From Brachyspira pilosicoli (GTDB taxonomy: Bacteria > Spirochaetota > Brachyspiria > Brachyspirales > Brachyspiraceae), in assembly GCF_036997485.1 (NCBI RefSeq), contig NZ_JAWLPU010000001.1, positions 62,001 through 126,000 on the forward strand: a stretch of 64,000 bases of DNA, read 5' to 3'. Below are positions 4,202 to 12,788 of the stretch, one piece after another. The notes beneath the pieces were generated by a model. That model was not told where the DNA came from. It saw nothing but the letters and a program-made list of their open reading frames with translations, and ran no database searches. Numbering within the stretch: position 1 is the stretch's first letter; each line of letters opens with the position of its first letter. Position numbers and translations under genes: made by a program.

Positions 4202-4288
4202 TTATCATAATATATTGTTATAATTATTTATTACTATATAATATTATAAATGTTTATAATATTAACTAATCTCGAGAGGTTTTATTTA

Positions 4289-6688
4289 ATGATTTGTTTA
4301 ATAAAAAGAAGTTTAATCATTGTATTAGCTATATTTTATATTTTTTCTTTAAATATATACGCTATAAATCAAAAAGAAAACGAATTATTTTTGGCTATAA
4401 AAGAAAAGAAAAATGAAAGAGATTTAAGAGAGATTTTAAAATATAGGGTAGATTTTTCTGCTACAAATGAAATGGGATTAACTCCGCTTTTATACGCTAT
4501 TGAATGCAATAATGAAAGAGCTTTGAGGGTGCTTCTTGAATATAGTGATGTTAATATTGAATATAGACTTCATGATGATTTTGCTGCTTATCCTGATATA
4601 AATAAATATGAAGGAGAGAGTGTTAATATAGGCGGGGCTACTCCTTTAATGTTTGCTATATTTAAAAACAATTCAAGGATAGTTAAACAGCTTATAGACA
4701 AGGGGGCTAATGTTAGAGCTAAAGATAATGAGGGGAACTCTGTATTTTTATATGCATGCGGTTTTGGAGACGGTAATATTATAAGAATGCTTCTTCAAAA
4801 AGATAAAACATTAGTTAATGACAAAACTCCTAACGGCAATCTTAATGGACTTCATTATGCTGCTGCTTTTAATAATTTAAATACTATTAATTTCTTAATT
4901 AAAAATGTTGATATGAATATTAATGACAGAGATTCAAATGGATGCACTGCTTTATATTATGCCGCTTACTATGCAAAAAAGGATGCATATAACCTTCTTA
5001 TTAAACTTGGTGCTAATAAAGATATAGGTGATAATTATGGAGTAACTCCAGAATATATATTATCAGGCGGAAGTTCTGCTATTGACTTAGAAAACAAAGA
5101 AGATAATAATACAAACACTTATAATGAAAATATGTTTATAGCAAGAGTTATTCAAACTTCAGATACTAATGCATTAAGAGATATAATGATGTATTCGAAC
5201 TTTAATATGAACTCTATCATTATGGCTTATGAAACTCCTCTCACTTATGCTATACATCTTGATAAACATGATATGGTTAATGAACTTTTAAGTTATAGAA
5301 AAAATAATACTAATATTATAAATATAGAAACTTCTTATATACCTGCTGATGAAGTTTATTTTGATGAAAATAGAGCAGAGTTTAGAGGCAATGTATATTT
5401 GGGTGATGTAAGTCCTTTACAGTATGCTATATTTAAAAATAACACTAATATAATAAACACTCTTTTAAGATATGGTGCTGATATAAGCAGAAAAGACAGT
5501 TTAGGAGACAATGCTTTAATGTATGCTGCAAGGTTTTCAAGTGCAGAAGTTATTGATACAATTTTAAATTATAGCAGTAATTCTTATAGAGTTGTAGATA
5601 TATATGGCAATACTCCTTTGCATAATGCATCATCAATTGGCAACACTAATGCTTTAATTGCTCTCATGAATAGAACACCTATTAATATAAACATACAAAA
5701 TATTAACGGAGATACCCCTTTGCATTTGGCTGTAAAAAATAACAACAGCAATACTTATAGATTTTTATTATTAAAGGGGGCTGATTATACTATAAAAAAT
5801 TATGACGGCAAAACTGCTTCAGATTTATTATATGGAGATAGTATAGAAAGCATAATGGGTAATTTTGGTGAAACTAATATTTATAACACAAATTCATTTA
5901 ATAATATAAATTCAATTCAAGCAAATAATGTTAACAATATCGTAGAAGATTTTTTATATGACAATATGCCAGATGATGATGCTTCTTACTATAAAAAAGA
6001 AGAAGAAAGGAATGAATATTCAACTCAATTAGAAAACAAAGTTCTTTTTGATGCTATTTATAAAGATGATGCAGCTCTAATACATAATGCTATATCTAAT
6101 ATAGTTGATCTTAATACAAGAAACTCCGAAGGCTTTACTCCGCTGCTTTATGCTATTCATTATGATAAAACTAATGCTCTTAATATACTTTTGAGCTACA
6201 CAAATAAAATTGATATAAATAAAACATTAGACAATTATACTAATTATTATTCTAAAAAAGGCATTAATTTTAGCGGAGAATTAGTCTTTGATAAAACAAC
6301 TCCTTTAGAATATGCTATATTTAAAGGAAATATCAATATAGTTTCTATGCTTATGGATAATAATGCTGATATATATCTTGAAGATTCAAAAGGATATAAT
6401 GGAATATTTTATGCTTCTGCTTTTGGAGATTATGCTCTTTTAAATAAAATACTTCAAAAATATCCTACTATATATAATTTTAAAAACTCTAATGGGGACG
6501 GTGTGCTTCATATTGCAGCAAGCTACGGTAATAATAACGCTATAAGTTTTTATTTATATAATACATTTTTAAGTATAAATACAAAAAATAATGAAGGAAA
6601 AACTCCATTAGATTTAGCAAACGAAAGAGGATATACTAACACGGTAGATTACTTAATAAAAGGCGGTGCTAAATACGGCAATCAATAA
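4289..6688 (+). CDS. large exported ankyrin-repeat protein
   Basis: A 799-residue paralogue of the preceding protein. The ATG at 4289 is chosen over an upstream in-frame ATG at 4250 because a GAGAGG ribosome-binding site lies at 4274-4279, 9 bases away, and translation from there starts a clean signal peptide (MICLIKRSLIIVLAIFYIFSLNIYA). Three long homologous ankyrin blocks follow, at about residues 30-270, 285-540 and 590-799, each with a [FY]xAI...TPLLYAI start, a second ...PLxYAIFKxN unit and an end like AYNLLIKLGA. A low-complexity Asn/Ser linker separates blocks two and three. It probably acts as a protein-binding scaffold at the cell surface or periplasm; no enzyme domain is visible. 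The 3' end overlaps the convergent lipoprotein gene by seven bases. Confidence 0.85.
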   Translation: MICLIKRSLIIVLAIFYIFSLNIYAINQKENELFLAIKEKKNERDLREILKYRVDFSATNEMGLTPLLYAIECNNERALRVLLEYSDVNIEYRLHDDFAAYPDINKYEGESVNIGGATPLMFAIFKNNSRIVKQLIDKGANVRAKDNEGNSVFLYACGFGDGNIIRMLLQKDKTLVNDKTPNGNLNGLHYAAAFNNLNTINFLIKNVDMNINDRDSNGCTALYYAAYYAKKDAYNLLIKLGANKDIGDNYGVTPEYILSGGSSAIDLENKEDNNTNTYNENMFIARVIQTSDTNALRDIMMYSNFNMNSIIMAYETPLTYAIHLDKHDMVNELLSYRKNNTNIINIETSYIPADEVYFDENRAEFRGNVYLGDVSPLQYAIFKNNTNIINTLLRYGADISRKDSLGDNALMYAARFSSAEVIDTILNYSSNSYRVVDIYGNTPLHNASSIGNTNALIALMNRTPININIQNINGDTPLHLAVKNNNSNTYRFLLLKGADYTIKNYDGKTASDLLYGDSIESIMGNFGETNIYNTNSFNNINSIQANNVNNIVEDFLYDNMPDDDASYYKKEEERNEYSTQLENKVLFDAIYKDDAALIHNAISNIVDLNTRNSEGFTPLLYAIHYDKTNALNILLSYTNKIDINKTLDNYTNYYSKKGINFSGELVFDKTTPLEYAIFKGNINIVSMLMDNNADIYLEDSKGYNGIFYASAFGDYALLNKILQKYPTIYNFKNSNGDGVLHIAASYGNNNAISFYLYNTFLSINTKNNEGKTPLDLANERGYTNTVDYLIKGGAKYGNQ

Positions 6689-7583: not shown

Positions 7584-8156
7584 TTATTGCAAGAATAGAT
7601 TAACAGCCTGTTCATTAGCACTATTAACAGCTGTTACAACAGAAGTGCTTGATATAGTAGCTCCGCTAATAGCTGCTATTTGAGCATCAAGTGCCTCTTC
7701 TGGTTTTATACCTTTTACAACAGTAAGAGGGACAATAGAACTTTTATTAGTAAATTGATTTCTAAAGTTAGGCTCTACAATTTTAGCACCAAGTCCAGGA
7801 GTTTCAGCCTGCTCAGTAACAACTATTCCAGTAATTATAGTAGCATCATCACTAAAACCAACTAATACTTTATTTTGACCATTATATCCGCCGGCAGAAG
7901 AAAGTATAGCATAACCTGCCACAGAACCATCCGCCTTTTTACCAATATAATATGGATATGTAGCATTCTCACTAATAGGACCTTCTATATTATCAGCATT
8001 AGGTATAACAGCCTTAACCCCATTTAATACAGTTTTTTCATTGTTAGCTAAAATATCTTTTTCAAAAGAAGAATAAACGAATGATAATAAAAATCCAGCA
8101 ATTAGAGCAGTTAATGTAACAGATATTACAGCTTTATAAGTAACTTCTTTTTTCAT
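7584..8156 (-). CDS. rnfG: Rnf electron-transport complex subunit G
   Basis: A 190-residue membrane-anchored flavoprotein subunit of the Rnf complex, which couples electron transfer between reduced ferredoxin and NAD+ to ion movement across the membrane. A single N-terminal membrane helix (VISVTLTALIAGFLLSFVYS) precedes the periplasmic FMN-binding domain. The covalent FMN attachment site is the threonine in SGATISS near residue 165, and the GLGAKI motif of the domain is present at about residue 123. The start overlaps the rnfD stop by four bases, indicating translational coupling. It is the last gene before the terminator; rnfE, rnfA and rnfB do not follow as they do in the common rnfCDGEAB order. 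Confidence 0.93.
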   Translation of the reverse strand: MKKEVTYKAVISVTLTALIAGFLLSFVYSSFEKDILANNEKTVLNGVKAVIPNADNIEGPISENATYPYYIGKKADGSVAGYAILSSAGGYNGQNKVLVGFSDDATIITGIVVTEQAETPGLGAKIVEPNFRNQFTNKSSIVPLTVVKGIKPEEALDAQIAAISGATISSTSVVTAVNSANEQAVNLFLQ

Positions 8157-9244
8157 TGCTTTGCTCCTTGTTGTTTTTCTATATTTATAGCCTCTTTCTT
8201 ACCAAAAGGTTTAGGACGAGTATACATAGCTATTAAAGGCATAAACATATTTCCTATTAATATAGAATACATAGTATATTCCGGAGAAGAACCAAAAGCT
8301 CTAAGTATTGCAAGTACAGCACCTATTAAAAGAGCATATATCCAAGCACCCAAATGACTAGAAGGGCAAGTAACCATATCAGTAGCCATAAAGAAAGCAC
8401 CTAAAACAAATCCGCCAGCAAATACTTGATATATAGGAGAAGCAAATTTTCCAGGCATAGCAAGACAAAGTACTAAACTTACTGTAAATAGAGAGATAAA
8501 CATTCCTAAAGGTATTCTCCAATCTATAGTTTTAGTAGCAATTAAGAATATTCCGCCTATTGTAAGAAGTATAACAGAAGTCTCACCTATAGCTCCGCCA
8601 GTGCTTCCTAAAAGCATTTGAATATAATAGTGAGCTTCAAATTGAATTTGTTCTATTAAAGAAGTACTAATACTATTATTATAAGTAAACTTCATAAAAG
8701 TTAAAGGAGTAGCCTGTGATAGAGCAGTCATCATATCAACTGACTGAGTACCGCCTGTAACGGCATTCATAGTTCTATGCCAATCTGTAATAAATAAATC
8801 TAAAAAAGGAACCCTAATAGGAGGAGTATAAGCACTCATTTGAGCAGGGAAAGCAACCTGTAAAAAAGCTCTTCCCACCAAAGCAGGGTTAAATATGTTA
8901 GAACCTAAACCTCCAAAAACTTCCTTAGCAAAAACAATAGCAACAACTCCTCCAATAACAACCATTGTAATAGTGGTACTAGGAGGTAAAGTCATTACTA
9001 AAAGCAAAGCCGTAACCACTGAAGCATAATCAGGAAGTACAGGCTGTTTTCTCATCTTTCTAACAATTATATTACATAAAACACAAGTAATAATAGAAGC
9101 AAGATATAATATAATTACTCTATTACCGAATAATACTACGCTATATATAATAGCAGGTAAAAGAGCAATAATTACTCTTAGCATAATTTTTTGTGTAGTA
9201 TCTCCATCTTTTATATGAGGAGAAGATTCAGTGTATAACTTCAT
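8153..9244 (-). CDS. rnfD: Rnf electron-transport complex subunit D
   Basis: A 363-residue polytopic membrane protein of the NqrB/RnfD family with about nine or ten hydrophobic segments. The flavin-attachment region is recognisable as SQATPLT near residue 177, the threonine being the FMN-linked residue in the family, and GGLGSNIFNPALVGRAF is a family signature. RnfD is the core membrane subunit that passes electrons toward RnfG and is thought to take part in ion translocation. It starts four bases after rnfC stops and overlaps rnfG by four. Length is normal. Confidence 0.94.
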   Translation of the reverse strand: MKLYTESSPHIKDGDTTQKIMLRVIIALLPAIIYSVVLFGNRVIILYLASIITCVLCNIIVRKMRKQPVLPDYASVVTALLLVMTLPPSTTITMVVIGGVVAIVFAKEVFGGLGSNIFNPALVGRAFLQVAFPAQMSAYTPPIRVPFLDLFITDWHRTMNAVTGGTQSVDMMTALSQATPLTFMKFTYNNSISTSLIEQIQFEAHYYIQMLLGSTGGAIGETSVILLTIGGIFLIATKTIDWRIPLGMFISLFTVSLVLCLAMPGKFASPIYQVFAGGFVLGAFFMATDMVTCPSSHLGAWIYALLIGAVLAILRAFGSSPEYTMYSILIGNMFMPLIAMYTRPKPFGKKEAINIEKQQGAKQ

Positions 9245-9248
9245 TATC

Positions 9249-10556
9249 TTATCTCCTTAACAAATCTTTACCATATCTAATCCATTGTACCAAAGGTATT
9301 TTGGAAGGACATATATAAGAACAACATCCGCATTCAAAACAAGTAGCTATATCCAAAGAATTTAATTTATCTTTAACTTTAGACTTAGCTGTATGAGCTA
9401 TCTCAGTAGGAGAAAGATGAAGAGGGCATGCATTAGCACATCTTCCGCATTTAATACAAGGATATTCAACTTCCTTAGGCAATTTATTTTTATCTAAGAA
9501 AAGTAAAGAGTTAGTACCTTTATTAACACATTGTTCCAAATTAGGCACACTCGCTCCCATCATAGGACCGCCTGCTATAACAAGTACATCTTCAGAAATA
9601 AGTCCGCCGCACTCATTAACTATATGTGAAATCGGAGTACCAAGCGGAACCCAAATGTTTTTATGTTCTTTAATAGCATCGCCAGATACAGTAACAATTC
9701 TCTCTATTAATGGTTTATCTTTAGCAACAGCTTCATATATAGCATATAAAGTAGCCACATTTACAACTAAAACATTAACGTCCATAGGAAGCTTACCCAC
9801 AGGTACAACTCTGCCAGTAGTAGCATCAATAAGCATTTTTTCAGCACCCTGAGGATAACGAAGTCTTAAAGGCATTACTTCAACATTGTAGTTTTTAGCG
9901 ACTTTTCCCATCTCTTCAATAGCCAAAGGTTTATTAGCCTCTATACCAATAACAGTTCTTTTTACAGAAGGAATGATTTTTCTTAAGATTTCTATACCTT
10001 TGAACAAATCTTCAGTATGTTCCATCATAAGTCTATAATCGCTAGTGATATAAGGTTCACATTCAACACCGTTAATAATTAAAGTATCACAATTACCCTT
10101 TGCAGCACCATCAACTTTAACATTAGTAGGGAAAGTAGCCCCTCCCATACCAACTATACCGGCATTTTGAATTTTCTTAGACATCTCTTCTGCAGATAAA
10201 GTCATATAATTATTATTTAGAGTAAAATCGATATTATTAGCTTCTGCATCTAAATTAATAAGAAAAGCATTGGCTCCCCTTCCCAAAGGCGGCGGAGCAA
10301 TTTCTATATTAGCAATAGTACCGCTAACAGAAGAAAACACATTTCCAGATACATATCCGCTAGCTTCGCCAATCATTTCTCCTCTTTGAACTTTATCCCC
10401 TTTATTTTTTAACATTTTAGCAGGTGCACCTATATGCTGTGCCATAGATATTAGAACTGATTTTGGAGCTTGGGTCATAGTAGAAGAAGCTATTTGAGCA
10501 GTATCTTTGCTATCATGAGGATGCACACCCCCAAAACGAAATTTACCTAACTTCAT
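9249..10556 (-). CDS. rnfC: Rnf electron-transport complex subunit C
   Basis: A 435-residue subunit carrying the NADH-binding and FMN-binding part of the Rnf complex. An N-terminal barrel-sandwich domain (residues 1-110) precedes the NuoF-like Rossmann region with GIVGMGGATFPT at about residue 133. At the C-terminus are two four-cysteine clusters, CIKCGRCANACP and CFECGCCSYICP, expected to bind two [4Fe-4S] centres. The length is close to that of clostridial RnfC and lacks a long repetitive tail as in Escherichia coli. It lies 47 bases after the fabH-like gene on the same strand with no terminator visible between, so it may be read with rpmF-plsX-fabH-like as well as from its own promoter. 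Confidence 0.95.
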   Translation of the reverse strand: MKLGKFRFGGVHPHDSKDTAQIASSTMTQAPKSVLISMAQHIGAPAKMLKNKGDKVQRGEMIGEASGYVSGNVFSSVSGTIANIEIAPPPLGRGANAFLINLDAEANNIDFTLNNNYMTLSAEEMSKKIQNAGIVGMGGATFPTNVKVDGAAKGNCDTLIINGVECEPYITSDYRLMMEHTEDLFKGIEILRKIIPSVKRTVIGIEANKPLAIEEMGKVAKNYNVEVMPLRLRYPQGAEKMLIDATTGRVVPVGKLPMDVNVLVVNVATLYAIYEAVAKDKPLIERIVTVSGDAIKEHKNIWVPLGTPISHIVNECGGLISEDVLVIAGGPMMGASVPNLEQCVNKGTNSLLFLDKNKLPKEVEYPCIKCGRCANACPLHLSPTEIAHTAKSKVKDKLNSLDIATCFECGCCSYICPSKIPLVQWIRYGKDLLRR

Positions 10557-10603: not shown

Positions 10604-11458
10604 TTAATCAATATTTAATACAGCAACTGCTCTCGTGTAACCGCTTCCATAACTACATAAAGCCAACTTAGTGTTTTTCTTTATACTTCCGTCCTCTAAA
10701 GCCATAGAAAGAGCAACTCCAGATGAAGCACTTAATGAAGAGTTAGCATTCTCCATTTTTGAATAAACAATATCTTTAGAGACATTCAAAGTATTAACAA
10801 AAGCATCAAAAGCATTTTTGTTAGAATATGAAGGTATATAGTAAGTAGGTTCTATATTATTTTTAGATAAGATTTCTTTTATATAGAGCGCAGCTTTTTT
10901 TGCTTCTTCTTCAAATATAGTATTATTTTTTATAGATATAAAATGTTCTTTATTGTTGACACCTTCTTTGGTGTATGGTTTAGCAGTTCCGCCCATAGGG
11001 ATGTAACAATTTTCCAAAGCATTTCCATCTGTAACAGAATCTATAAAATTTATCTCAATATTAGATTTTTCATTGGAAACTATAGCAGCAACAGAAGCGT
11101 CATCAAATCTATTAGTATCATCACAAATATAAAAAGATTCAGTTGCTACTACTAATATGTTTTTATATCTATTGCTTTTTATAAAGGCATAGGCAAGTCT
11201 TAAAGCTGATATAAAACCAGTAAAATCACTTTCTATGTCAAAACAAAAAGCATTTTTTGCCTCAATTTTACCTGCTAATATACAAGCAGTAGAAGGATAA
11301 ACATAATCTTTAGTAACAGTTGCACAAATAATAGCATCTATAGATAATGGGTCTATATTTTTTATAGTATCTTTAATAGATTCCATAGCTAATTCAGATG
11401 CGGGCATAGATGTTTGTTTATTCTTATAAATAGCTTTACAAGATTTAATATATACCAT
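10604..11458 (-). CDS. FabH-like ketoacyl-ACP synthase homologue lacking catalytic Cys and His
   Basis: A 284-residue protein that aligns along its length with beta-ketoacyl-ACP synthase III. The nucleophile region reads FDIESDFTGFISAL where FabH has D-x-x-A-A-C-x-G-F, so the catalytic cysteine is Phe79. The histidine motif V/I-P-H-Q-A-N is IPSYSN, so histidine is Ser210. Only the asparagine of the triad remains (Asn239 in NANSS). The N-terminus is about 30 residues short and lacks the usual W-I-x-x-R-T-G-I substrate-binding motif. The C-terminal glycine-rich SYGSGYT segment is intact. It occupies the usual fabH place after rpmF and plsX, 14 bases from plsX. Condensing activity by the normal mechanism is not expected; a binding or regulatory role, or another reaction, is possible. 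The open frame and family-like sequence elsewhere argue against a recent pseudogene. Confidence 0.85.
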   Translation of the reverse strand: MVYIKSCKAIYKNKQTSMPASELAMESIKDTIKNIDPLSIDAIICATVTKDYVYPSTACILAGKIEAKNAFCFDIESDFTGFISALRLAYAFIKSNRYKNILVVATESFYICDDTNRFDDASVAAIVSNEKSNIEINFIDSVTDGNALENCYIPMGGTAKPYTKEGVNNKEHFISIKNNTIFEEEAKKAALYIKEILSKNNIEPTYYIPSYSNKNAFDAFVNTLNVSKDIVYSKMENANSSLSASSGVALSMALEDGSIKKNTKLALCSYGSGYTRAVAVLNID

Positions 11459-11472
11459 ATATAAAAATCCTT

Positions 11473-12492
11473 TTAAAAAATTCTTCTTTTCACACCAGAA
11501 TCTAAAAGTTCTTTAGATATTTTTTCATTGATTTTTGCATCTAAAAATTTATACATATTAAGCACAGCATTTTTAACACCGTCTTTACCAGTAGTGCCAT
11601 GCCCAACAAAAGCTCCGCCGTTTAATCCAAGCAATATAGCAGAACCATAAGAATCGGCACTCATTTGCGTCTTTAAATTTTTAAATACAGATTTCATCAT
11701 AACAGCACCCATCATATTAAGAGGGTTCTTTTTTATTTCTTTTTTTAAGAGATTTACTATTAAGCTAGCACTTCCTTCTATACTTTTTAATACTATATTA
11801 CCATCAAAGCCGTCAGCAAGTACAACATCAGCAATATCCGATTTAAGCATGCTGTTAGGTTCAACATTACCTACAAAATTTACTTTCTTCATTTTTTCTA
11901 ATCTTTCAAAATGTTTTTTTACAGCAGCATTTCCTTTACTATCTTCTTCACCTATATTTAAAAGAGCAACTCTTGGATTATTTATGTTCATGTATCTTTT
12001 AGCGAATACTCTTCCCATAACAGCGAATTGAGCCATATAATCTGGGCTGCAATCTACATTTGCCCCCATATCCATCATACAAAACTCACCGCCTATTTTA
12101 GGAAGTGTAGATACTAAAGGGGGACGCATTACACCTTTTAAACGGCCTATTTCTGTAAGTGCGGCAGCTAATGTGGCTCCAGTGTTACCTGGAGAAAAGA
12201 AACCTTCCGATTTTTTATCTGACACCAAACGTGCTGCTACTAATACAGAAGCATTTTTTTTATGTTTTACTGCAATAGCTGGAGTTTCTGTCATTTCTAT
12301 GATAGAATCACTATGTTGTATATCTACACGATTCTTATCATATTTTAATGATGATAAAGATTTAACGATATCTTTTTCATTACCAACTAATATCAAATTC
12401 ACATCTTTATTTAAAGACAATGCTTCAATTGCACCATTTACTAATTCGTCTAGAGGTTTTTCTCCGCTAGCAACATCTATGGATAAATTCAT
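11473..12492 (-). CDS. plsX: phosphate acyltransferase PlsX
   Basis: A 339-residue soluble enzyme that converts acyl-ACP to acyl-phosphate, the donor for PlsY in phosphatidic acid synthesis. Family motifs are clear: SPGNTGATLAAAL near residue 98, RPPLVSTLP, MDMGANVDC and LADGFDGNIVLKS. The N-terminal motif, usually D-x-M-G-G-D, is diverged here (IDVASGEKP). It lies 18 bases downstream of rpmF and 14 upstream of the fabH-like gene, the classical rpmF-plsX-fabH arrangement. PlsY is encoded separately at 14037-14684. Confidence 0.95.
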   Translation of the reverse strand: MNLSIDVASGEKPLDELVNGAIEALSLNKDVNLILVGNEKDIVKSLSSLKYDKNRVDIQHSDSIIEMTETPAIAVKHKKNASVLVAARLVSDKKSEGFFSPGNTGATLAAALTEIGRLKGVMRPPLVSTLPKIGGEFCMMDMGANVDCSPDYMAQFAVMGRVFAKRYMNINNPRVALLNIGEEDSKGNAAVKKHFERLEKMKKVNFVGNVEPNSMLKSDIADVVLADGFDGNIVLKSIEGSASLIVNLLKKEIKKNPLNMMGAVMMKSVFKNLKTQMSADSYGSAILLGLNGGAFVGHGTTGKDGVKNAVLNMYKFLDAKINEKISKELLDSGVKRRIF

Positions 12493-12510: not shown

Positions 12511-12705
12511 TTAACCAGCATTTTGATTTTTATTAGCTTTTACTACTCTATCTTTATAAAATCCGCATTCAGGACAAATTCTGTGCGGCATTCTTTCTGC
12601 TCCGCATTGAGGGCAGATTGATAAAGAACCTAAAAATCTTTTATCATTAGCAGCTTGTCTTGATCTTTTTTTCGATTTCGATTTTCTATGCTTAGGTACA
12701 GCCAT
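12511..12705 (-). CDS. rpmF: 50S ribosomal protein L32
   Basis: A 64-residue basic protein starting MAVPKHRKSKSKKRSR, typical of L32, with a zinc ribbon made by CPQC and CPEC. A good AAGGAG ribosome-binding site lies at 12713-12718. It is the first gene of the rpmF-plsX-fabH-like operon and has a well-formed promoter 55-83 bases upstream. Confidence 0.97.
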   Translation of the reverse strand: MAVPKHRKSKSKKRSRQAANDKRFLGSLSICPQCGAERMPHRICPECGFYKDRVVKANKNQNAG

Positions 12706-12759: not shown

Positions 12760-12788
12760 ATTTTACTATTATGTCTAATTTTTGTCAA
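12760..12788 (-). promoter_or_regulatory. sigma-70-type promoter of rpmF-plsX operon
   Basis: On the minus strand a perfect -35 TTGACA (12788-12783) is followed after 17 bases by a -10 TAAAAT (12765-12760). It is properly placed upstream of rpmF. Confidence 0.75.

Follow-up and report, generated by a model that had tools for sequence, protein, structure and literature searches.

A predicted FabH pseudoenzyme conserved beside plsX in Brachyspiraceae

In the stretch of Brachyspira pilosicoli DNA analysed here (64,000 nucleotides, hereafter the window), the gene that follows rpmF and plsX encodes a homologue of the ketoacyl-ACP synthase FabH (KASIII), named X below, in which the catalytic residues appeared to be missing. 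Such a gene opens a question that is both general and testable: what holds a dead synthase fold under strong selection? We argue below that X is a pseudoenzyme of the whole Brachyspiraceae lineage, real rather than an artefact, and we are highly confident that it is functional while being unable to condense. The genes concerned are arranged as follows.

12760..12788, minus strand: promoter-like site (TTGACA-17-TAAAAT) upstream of rpmF, a consensus match only
12511..12705, minus strand: rpmF (ribosomal protein L32), 18 nt upstream of plsX
11473..12492, minus strand: plsX (phosphate acyltransferase), 14 nt upstream of X; 305.5 bits with TIGR00182, above the cut-off of 243.4
10604..11458, minus strand: X, KASIII (FabH) homologue predicted to be catalytically dead, 284 aa, from Pfam and NCBIfam matches and predicted fold
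9249..10556, minus strand: rnfC, 47 nt downstream of X, followed by rnfD and rnfG

The genes follow each other in the order rpmF-plsX-X-rnfC-rnfD-rnfG, with gaps of 18, 14, 47, 4 and -4 nt. No terminator-like site was found between 10400 and 12900, the ATG of X is preceded by an AAAAGGA ribosome-binding sequence, and plsX and X are probably co-transcribed. The Rnf genes fall into two groups: rnfC, rnfD and rnfG stand in the window (7584-10556), downstream of X, and a second cluster on a different contig (G000:C3:326618-328486) consists of rnfA, an rnfA-like neighbour that is probably rnfE, and rnfB. Beyond the rnf genes, on the opposite strand (4250-6688), is a gene whose 812-aa product resembles ankyrin-repeat proteins and has a signal-like N-terminus; in another genome, G021, the gene after X is itself ankyrin-like in appearance.

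X matches both Pfam domains of the family, ACP_syn_III and ACP_syn_III_C, above their gathering scores. With the curated FabH models of NCBIfam it gives E-values of about 1e-39 and fails both cut-offs, scoring 134.7 bits for fabH (TIGR00747, cut-off 292.1) and 138.2 bits for PRK09352 (NF006829, cut-off 249). An AlphaFold2 model of high confidence (pLDDT 91.3, pTM 0.90) has FabH enzymes as its best PDB matches in Foldseek (2ebd, TM 0.84). The model thus indicates that X keeps the KASIII (thiolase) fold, and the open frame and preserved fold of the original prediction are both borne out. The missing WIxxRTGI motif and the short N-terminus, also part of that prediction, are real as well: the N-terminal loop is gone. 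A late start hiding the WIxxRTG segment was considered and rejected, since the frame extends just 18 codons upstream, into plsX, and holds no such segment.

To describe the active site, orthologues of X were aligned with 36 intact FabHs and with E. coli FabH. The triad numbering of the latter, Cys112/His244/Asn274, agrees with the literature (PMC8024396). Four codons of X are of importance here.

11222..11224, minus strand: codon of Phe79, which stands in for catalytic Cys112 in all 28 orthologues
10829..10831, minus strand: codon of Ser210, which stands in for catalytic His244 in all 28 orthologues
10739..10741, minus strand: codon of Ser240, at the place of catalytic Asn274; S in 27 and P in 1 of the 28 orthologues
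10742..10744, minus strand: codon of Asn239, aligned with Gly273; N 10, H 15, K 2, I 1 in the orthologues

The replacement of the catalytic Cys by Phe79 and of the His by Ser210 had been read from this one sequence, and both are fixed in every complete orthologue, none of which has an intact Cys-His-Asn set. Asn239 had been taken for the sole surviving residue of the triad. This assignment was off by one: the ungapped alignment of HGNTSAAS with ANSSLSAS puts Ser240 at Asn274, and Asn239 falls on Gly273, at a position that varies between N, H, K and I. As judged from the alignment, the whole triad is therefore lost. Cys72 was also examined as a replacement nucleophile and discarded, as had been anticipated, because the position varies across the 28 orthologues (C 25, A 2, S 1).

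Losses extend to the substrate determinants. Trp32, Arg36, Thr37, Thr28, Met207, Gly209, Ala246, Asn247, Arg249 and Lys214, which bind CoA or ACP in FabH, are replaced or deleted in X, and the K256 position, the basic patch and the N-terminal loop are lost too. In particular, relative to the 36 intact FabHs, X has neither the CoA-binding Trp32/Arg36 pair nor the ACP-docking Arg249 with its basic patch. The acyl pocket has Phe79 in place of the Cys and Asp78 in place of an Ala. Other positions are kept, namely R117, F118 and F182 (E. coli R151, F157 and F213), the Gly305/Gly307 turn and Pro88. From these replacements the former CoA and ACP routes look closed.

A true FabH was expected elsewhere in the genome, and two were found (C1:998112 and C1:1021162), with Cys, HQAN and GN(T/C)S motifs and scores of 378.4 and 364.4 bits against the PRK09352 cut-off of 249; both also pass the TIGR00747 cut-off. 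The genome encodes fabF and fabD as well. A copy of one of these FabHs, FabH2, is present in each of the eleven Brachyspiraceae genomes compared. The gene of this active FabH2 (G000:C1:1021162, L003) is not part of a fab operon; the next gene encodes an acetyl-CoA acetyltransferase-like thiolase. The B. pilosicoli genome paper lists just fabZ, fabD, fabF, acpP and fabG for fatty acid synthesis (PMC2897892), and the 'fabH' and 'plsX' of its grd locus correspond to GrdC and GrdD. Since B. pilosicoli strains (L074, L075; G001, G025) have KASIII matches outside the plsX slot, one and two respectively, FabH was probably overlooked in that paper.

We then asked how far X extends and how it evolves. 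When 296 genomes of the phylum were searched with a profile, complete X proteins of Brachyspiraceae scored at least 416 bits and other FabHs at most 178 bits; those checked below this gap (in G029, G035, G047 and G061) carry the Cys and HQAN. The scan of the genome collection found no X beyond Brachyspira/Spirochaetia, every other match being an intact FabH. X was found in 26 genomes of the genus, its own included, and in 3 further genomes of the family, always without internal stop. One of these 29 copies is cut by a contig end, leaving 28 complete orthologues from three genera, the nearest named relatives being B. pilosicoli strains (93-94% identity). In all 28 complete cases plsX directly precedes X, including two genomes (G021 and G027) where rnfC is not adjacent. 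In a single-contig genome, G007 (L006), plsX is in two overlapping frames (454-1483), X and rnfC being intact; this split is a frameshift or sequencing error.

Among close relatives dN/dS was 0.07-0.11 for X, 0.03-0.13 for PlsX and 0.03-0.06 for RnfC, so that X is similar to plsX and somewhat higher than rnfC; medians among more distant Brachyspira were 0.081, 0.076 and 0.097, respectively. Values this close to those of plsX and rnfC imply that X is not decaying. Together with the fixed substitutions and the lack of any loss in 29 genomes, they uphold the earlier proposal of selection for a non-condensing role.

Where does X come from? In the sister family (G029, G030) the genes stand in the order rpmF-plsX-fabH and the FabH of this slot is intact; the same holds for several further families of spirochaetes and for other phyla. 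This is thus an old gene order, and the neighbourhood of X was inherited. In the tree, all copies of X group in a single clade with a long stem. Joining it to the slot FabH of the sister family gave an lnL 1.5 lower (p-AU 0.417), joining it to the other FabH of that family an lnL 11.4 lower (p 0.09), and joining it to the whole FabH1/FabH2 clade an lnL 6.1 lower (p 0.25). Neither the first nor the third of these placements is rejected, and the second fits worse. Both active Brachyspira FabHs group with the second FabH of the sister family (100/98). From synteny and these test values, we favour descent of X from the slot FabH by conversion: once a second FabH encoded elsewhere could supply initiation, the slot FabH of the rpmF-plsX-fabH operon would have lost its capacity to condense, in the ancestor of Brachyspiraceae.

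Conservation along X was compared with that of FabH2 from the same species group, over 284 conservation windows. Residues 210-243, which span the loops of the His and the Asn together with the intervening helix, are variable in X, and their change relative to FabH2 is the lowest of all 284. Residues 49-95 are conserved in both proteins alike. Residues 144-170 are conserved in X and drifting in the active FabH2; only 4 of the 284 windows are as high.

10949..11029, minus strand: codons of loop 144-170 (DGNALENCYIPMGGTAKPYTKEGVNNK), far better conserved in X than in FabH2

This loop corresponds to the FabH region lying over the substrate tunnel, and its conservation makes it a candidate interaction or ligand surface. 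The pattern indicates that function has moved off the catalytic C-terminal half of X, onto the N-terminal half and loop 144-170.

This shift of constraint, combined with the pattern of the lost triad, fits a non-catalytic subunit. We give a probability of about 0.5 to the reading that X is a non-catalytic scaffold or regulatory subunit. X would keep its fold and bind a partner through the conserved N-terminal half and loop 144-170, in the way that PqsB supports PqsC, and the partner would be either PlsX or an active FabH paralogue in a mixed dimer; a further candidate is a second copy of X itself. Dimerisation, partner binding and regulation by X are all things that we infer. We lean slightly towards PlsX, bearing in mind that its adjacency, being inherited, is weak evidence for a partnership. 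Covariation of rates with X did not tell the two candidates apart (partial r of 0.30 for PlsX and 0.37 for FabH2, overlapping under jackknife, eleven Brachyspiraceae genomes). The original prediction of a role next to PlsX stands in part: a subunit or scaffold is the best fit, and acyl-ACP sensing is less supported, the CoA and ACP residues being lost. A more specific proposal, in which X is a dedicated subunit that tunes phospholipid synthesis across the family by binding to PlsX or to an active FabH, can be put forward only tentatively. Our literature search found no paper that deals with X or with pseudoenzymes of the FabH kind, no earlier description of a pseudoenzyme that regulates acyl flux in fatty acid metabolism, and nothing on X among Brachyspira essentiality data.

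The main alternative is a ligand sensor: X would still bind an acyl- or CoA-like molecule in a reshaped pocket and pass the signal on to PlsX or to the synthesis of fatty acids. The strong conservation of loop 144-170, at the place of the FabH region over the tunnel, and the retention of R117, F118 and F182 would suit such a role; the CoA and ACP determinants listed above, from W32 to the K256 position, are however replaced or deleted, and the bulky Phe79 together with Asp78 fills the Cys and Ala places of the acyl pocket. We consider a sensor unlikely, and a subunit is more probable than the detection of acyl-ACP by way of the former tunnel. Still more doubtful is a new, Cys-independent activity, for instance acyl transfer or hydrolysis, carried by residues fixed in X. 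Asp78, Tyr162, Ser210 and Lys177 are invariant polar residues that are X-specific or newly fixed, but no nucleophile-base set is evident among them, His172 is common to many active FabHs, and few parts of X vary more than the HQAN and GNTSAAS loops, which in FabH2 are invariant or well conserved. A malonyl-ACP decarboxylase resembling the Cys-less KSQ-type ketosynthases would agree with the replaced Cys and the kept fold. Decarboxylation by KAS enzymes requires a His/Asn (or His/His) pair, and KSQ-type enzymes keep their His and Asn/His when the Cys is replaced; both places are lost in X (Ser210, Ser240), which makes this activity most improbable. Finally, a decaying gene or sequencing error, suggested by the short N-terminus and by domain scores below the family cut-offs, is ruled out by 28 open orthologues with identical fixed substitutions and a dN/dS of about 0.08.

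The non-catalytic subunit remains our preferred reading. Automatic annotation would label X as fabH, so that metabolic models of Brachyspira and lists of drug targets may name the wrong gene. Brachyspiraceae, in which X is fixed, include pathogens of pigs, poultry and people. Should X prove to regulate PlsX or FabH, core lipid synthesis would contain a rare case of a pseudoenzyme.

How does X compare with known systems? With FabH/KASIII itself (TIGR00747, PRK09352) it shares the fold, the rpmF-plsX-fabH slot and about 25-37% identity; unlike these enzymes, it is without the Cys-His-Asn triad, the WIxxRTG motif and the ACP-docking Arg249, and stays below the curated cut-offs. In type II polyketide synthases, KS-beta, or chain length factor, is a Cys-less subunit of ketosynthase fold which supports an active partner. 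It belongs, however, to the KAS I/II branch and is encoded beside that partner. Component C of glycine reductase, GrdC-GrdD, pairs a KASIII-related subunit with a PlsX-family subunit, and both are encoded in the same genome as X. GrdC differs from X in its length (528 aa), in having a Cys at the nucleophile place (RGFCAAPSH) and in its family (NF040746). By analogy, this precedent makes a pairing of FabH-like and PlsX-like proteins plausible, and is no evidence for X itself.

The closest worked example for X, again by analogy, is PqsB of the PqsBC complex of Pseudomonas aeruginosa. PqsB lacks the whole triad, pairs with PqsC in an arrangement like that of the FabH dimer and has a C-terminal subdomain that is reduced; a scaffold role is ascribed to it (PMC4807248). 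The two proteins differ in context: PqsB is paired with PqsC in alkylquinolone synthesis, whereas X sits with plsX in a housekeeping operon. PqsB itself is hard to align (PMC4807248), and when the X profile was matched against the PDB, no PqsB chain stood among the best 60 of 69 hits; among these, PqsC matched with an E-value of only 3e-6, over part of the protein. X combines, as PqsB does, an absent triad with a kept KASIII-like fold, its N-terminal subdomain is also better kept than the C-terminal one, and the two residue ranges are of similar length (1-279 for PqsB, in a figure legend of PMC4807248).
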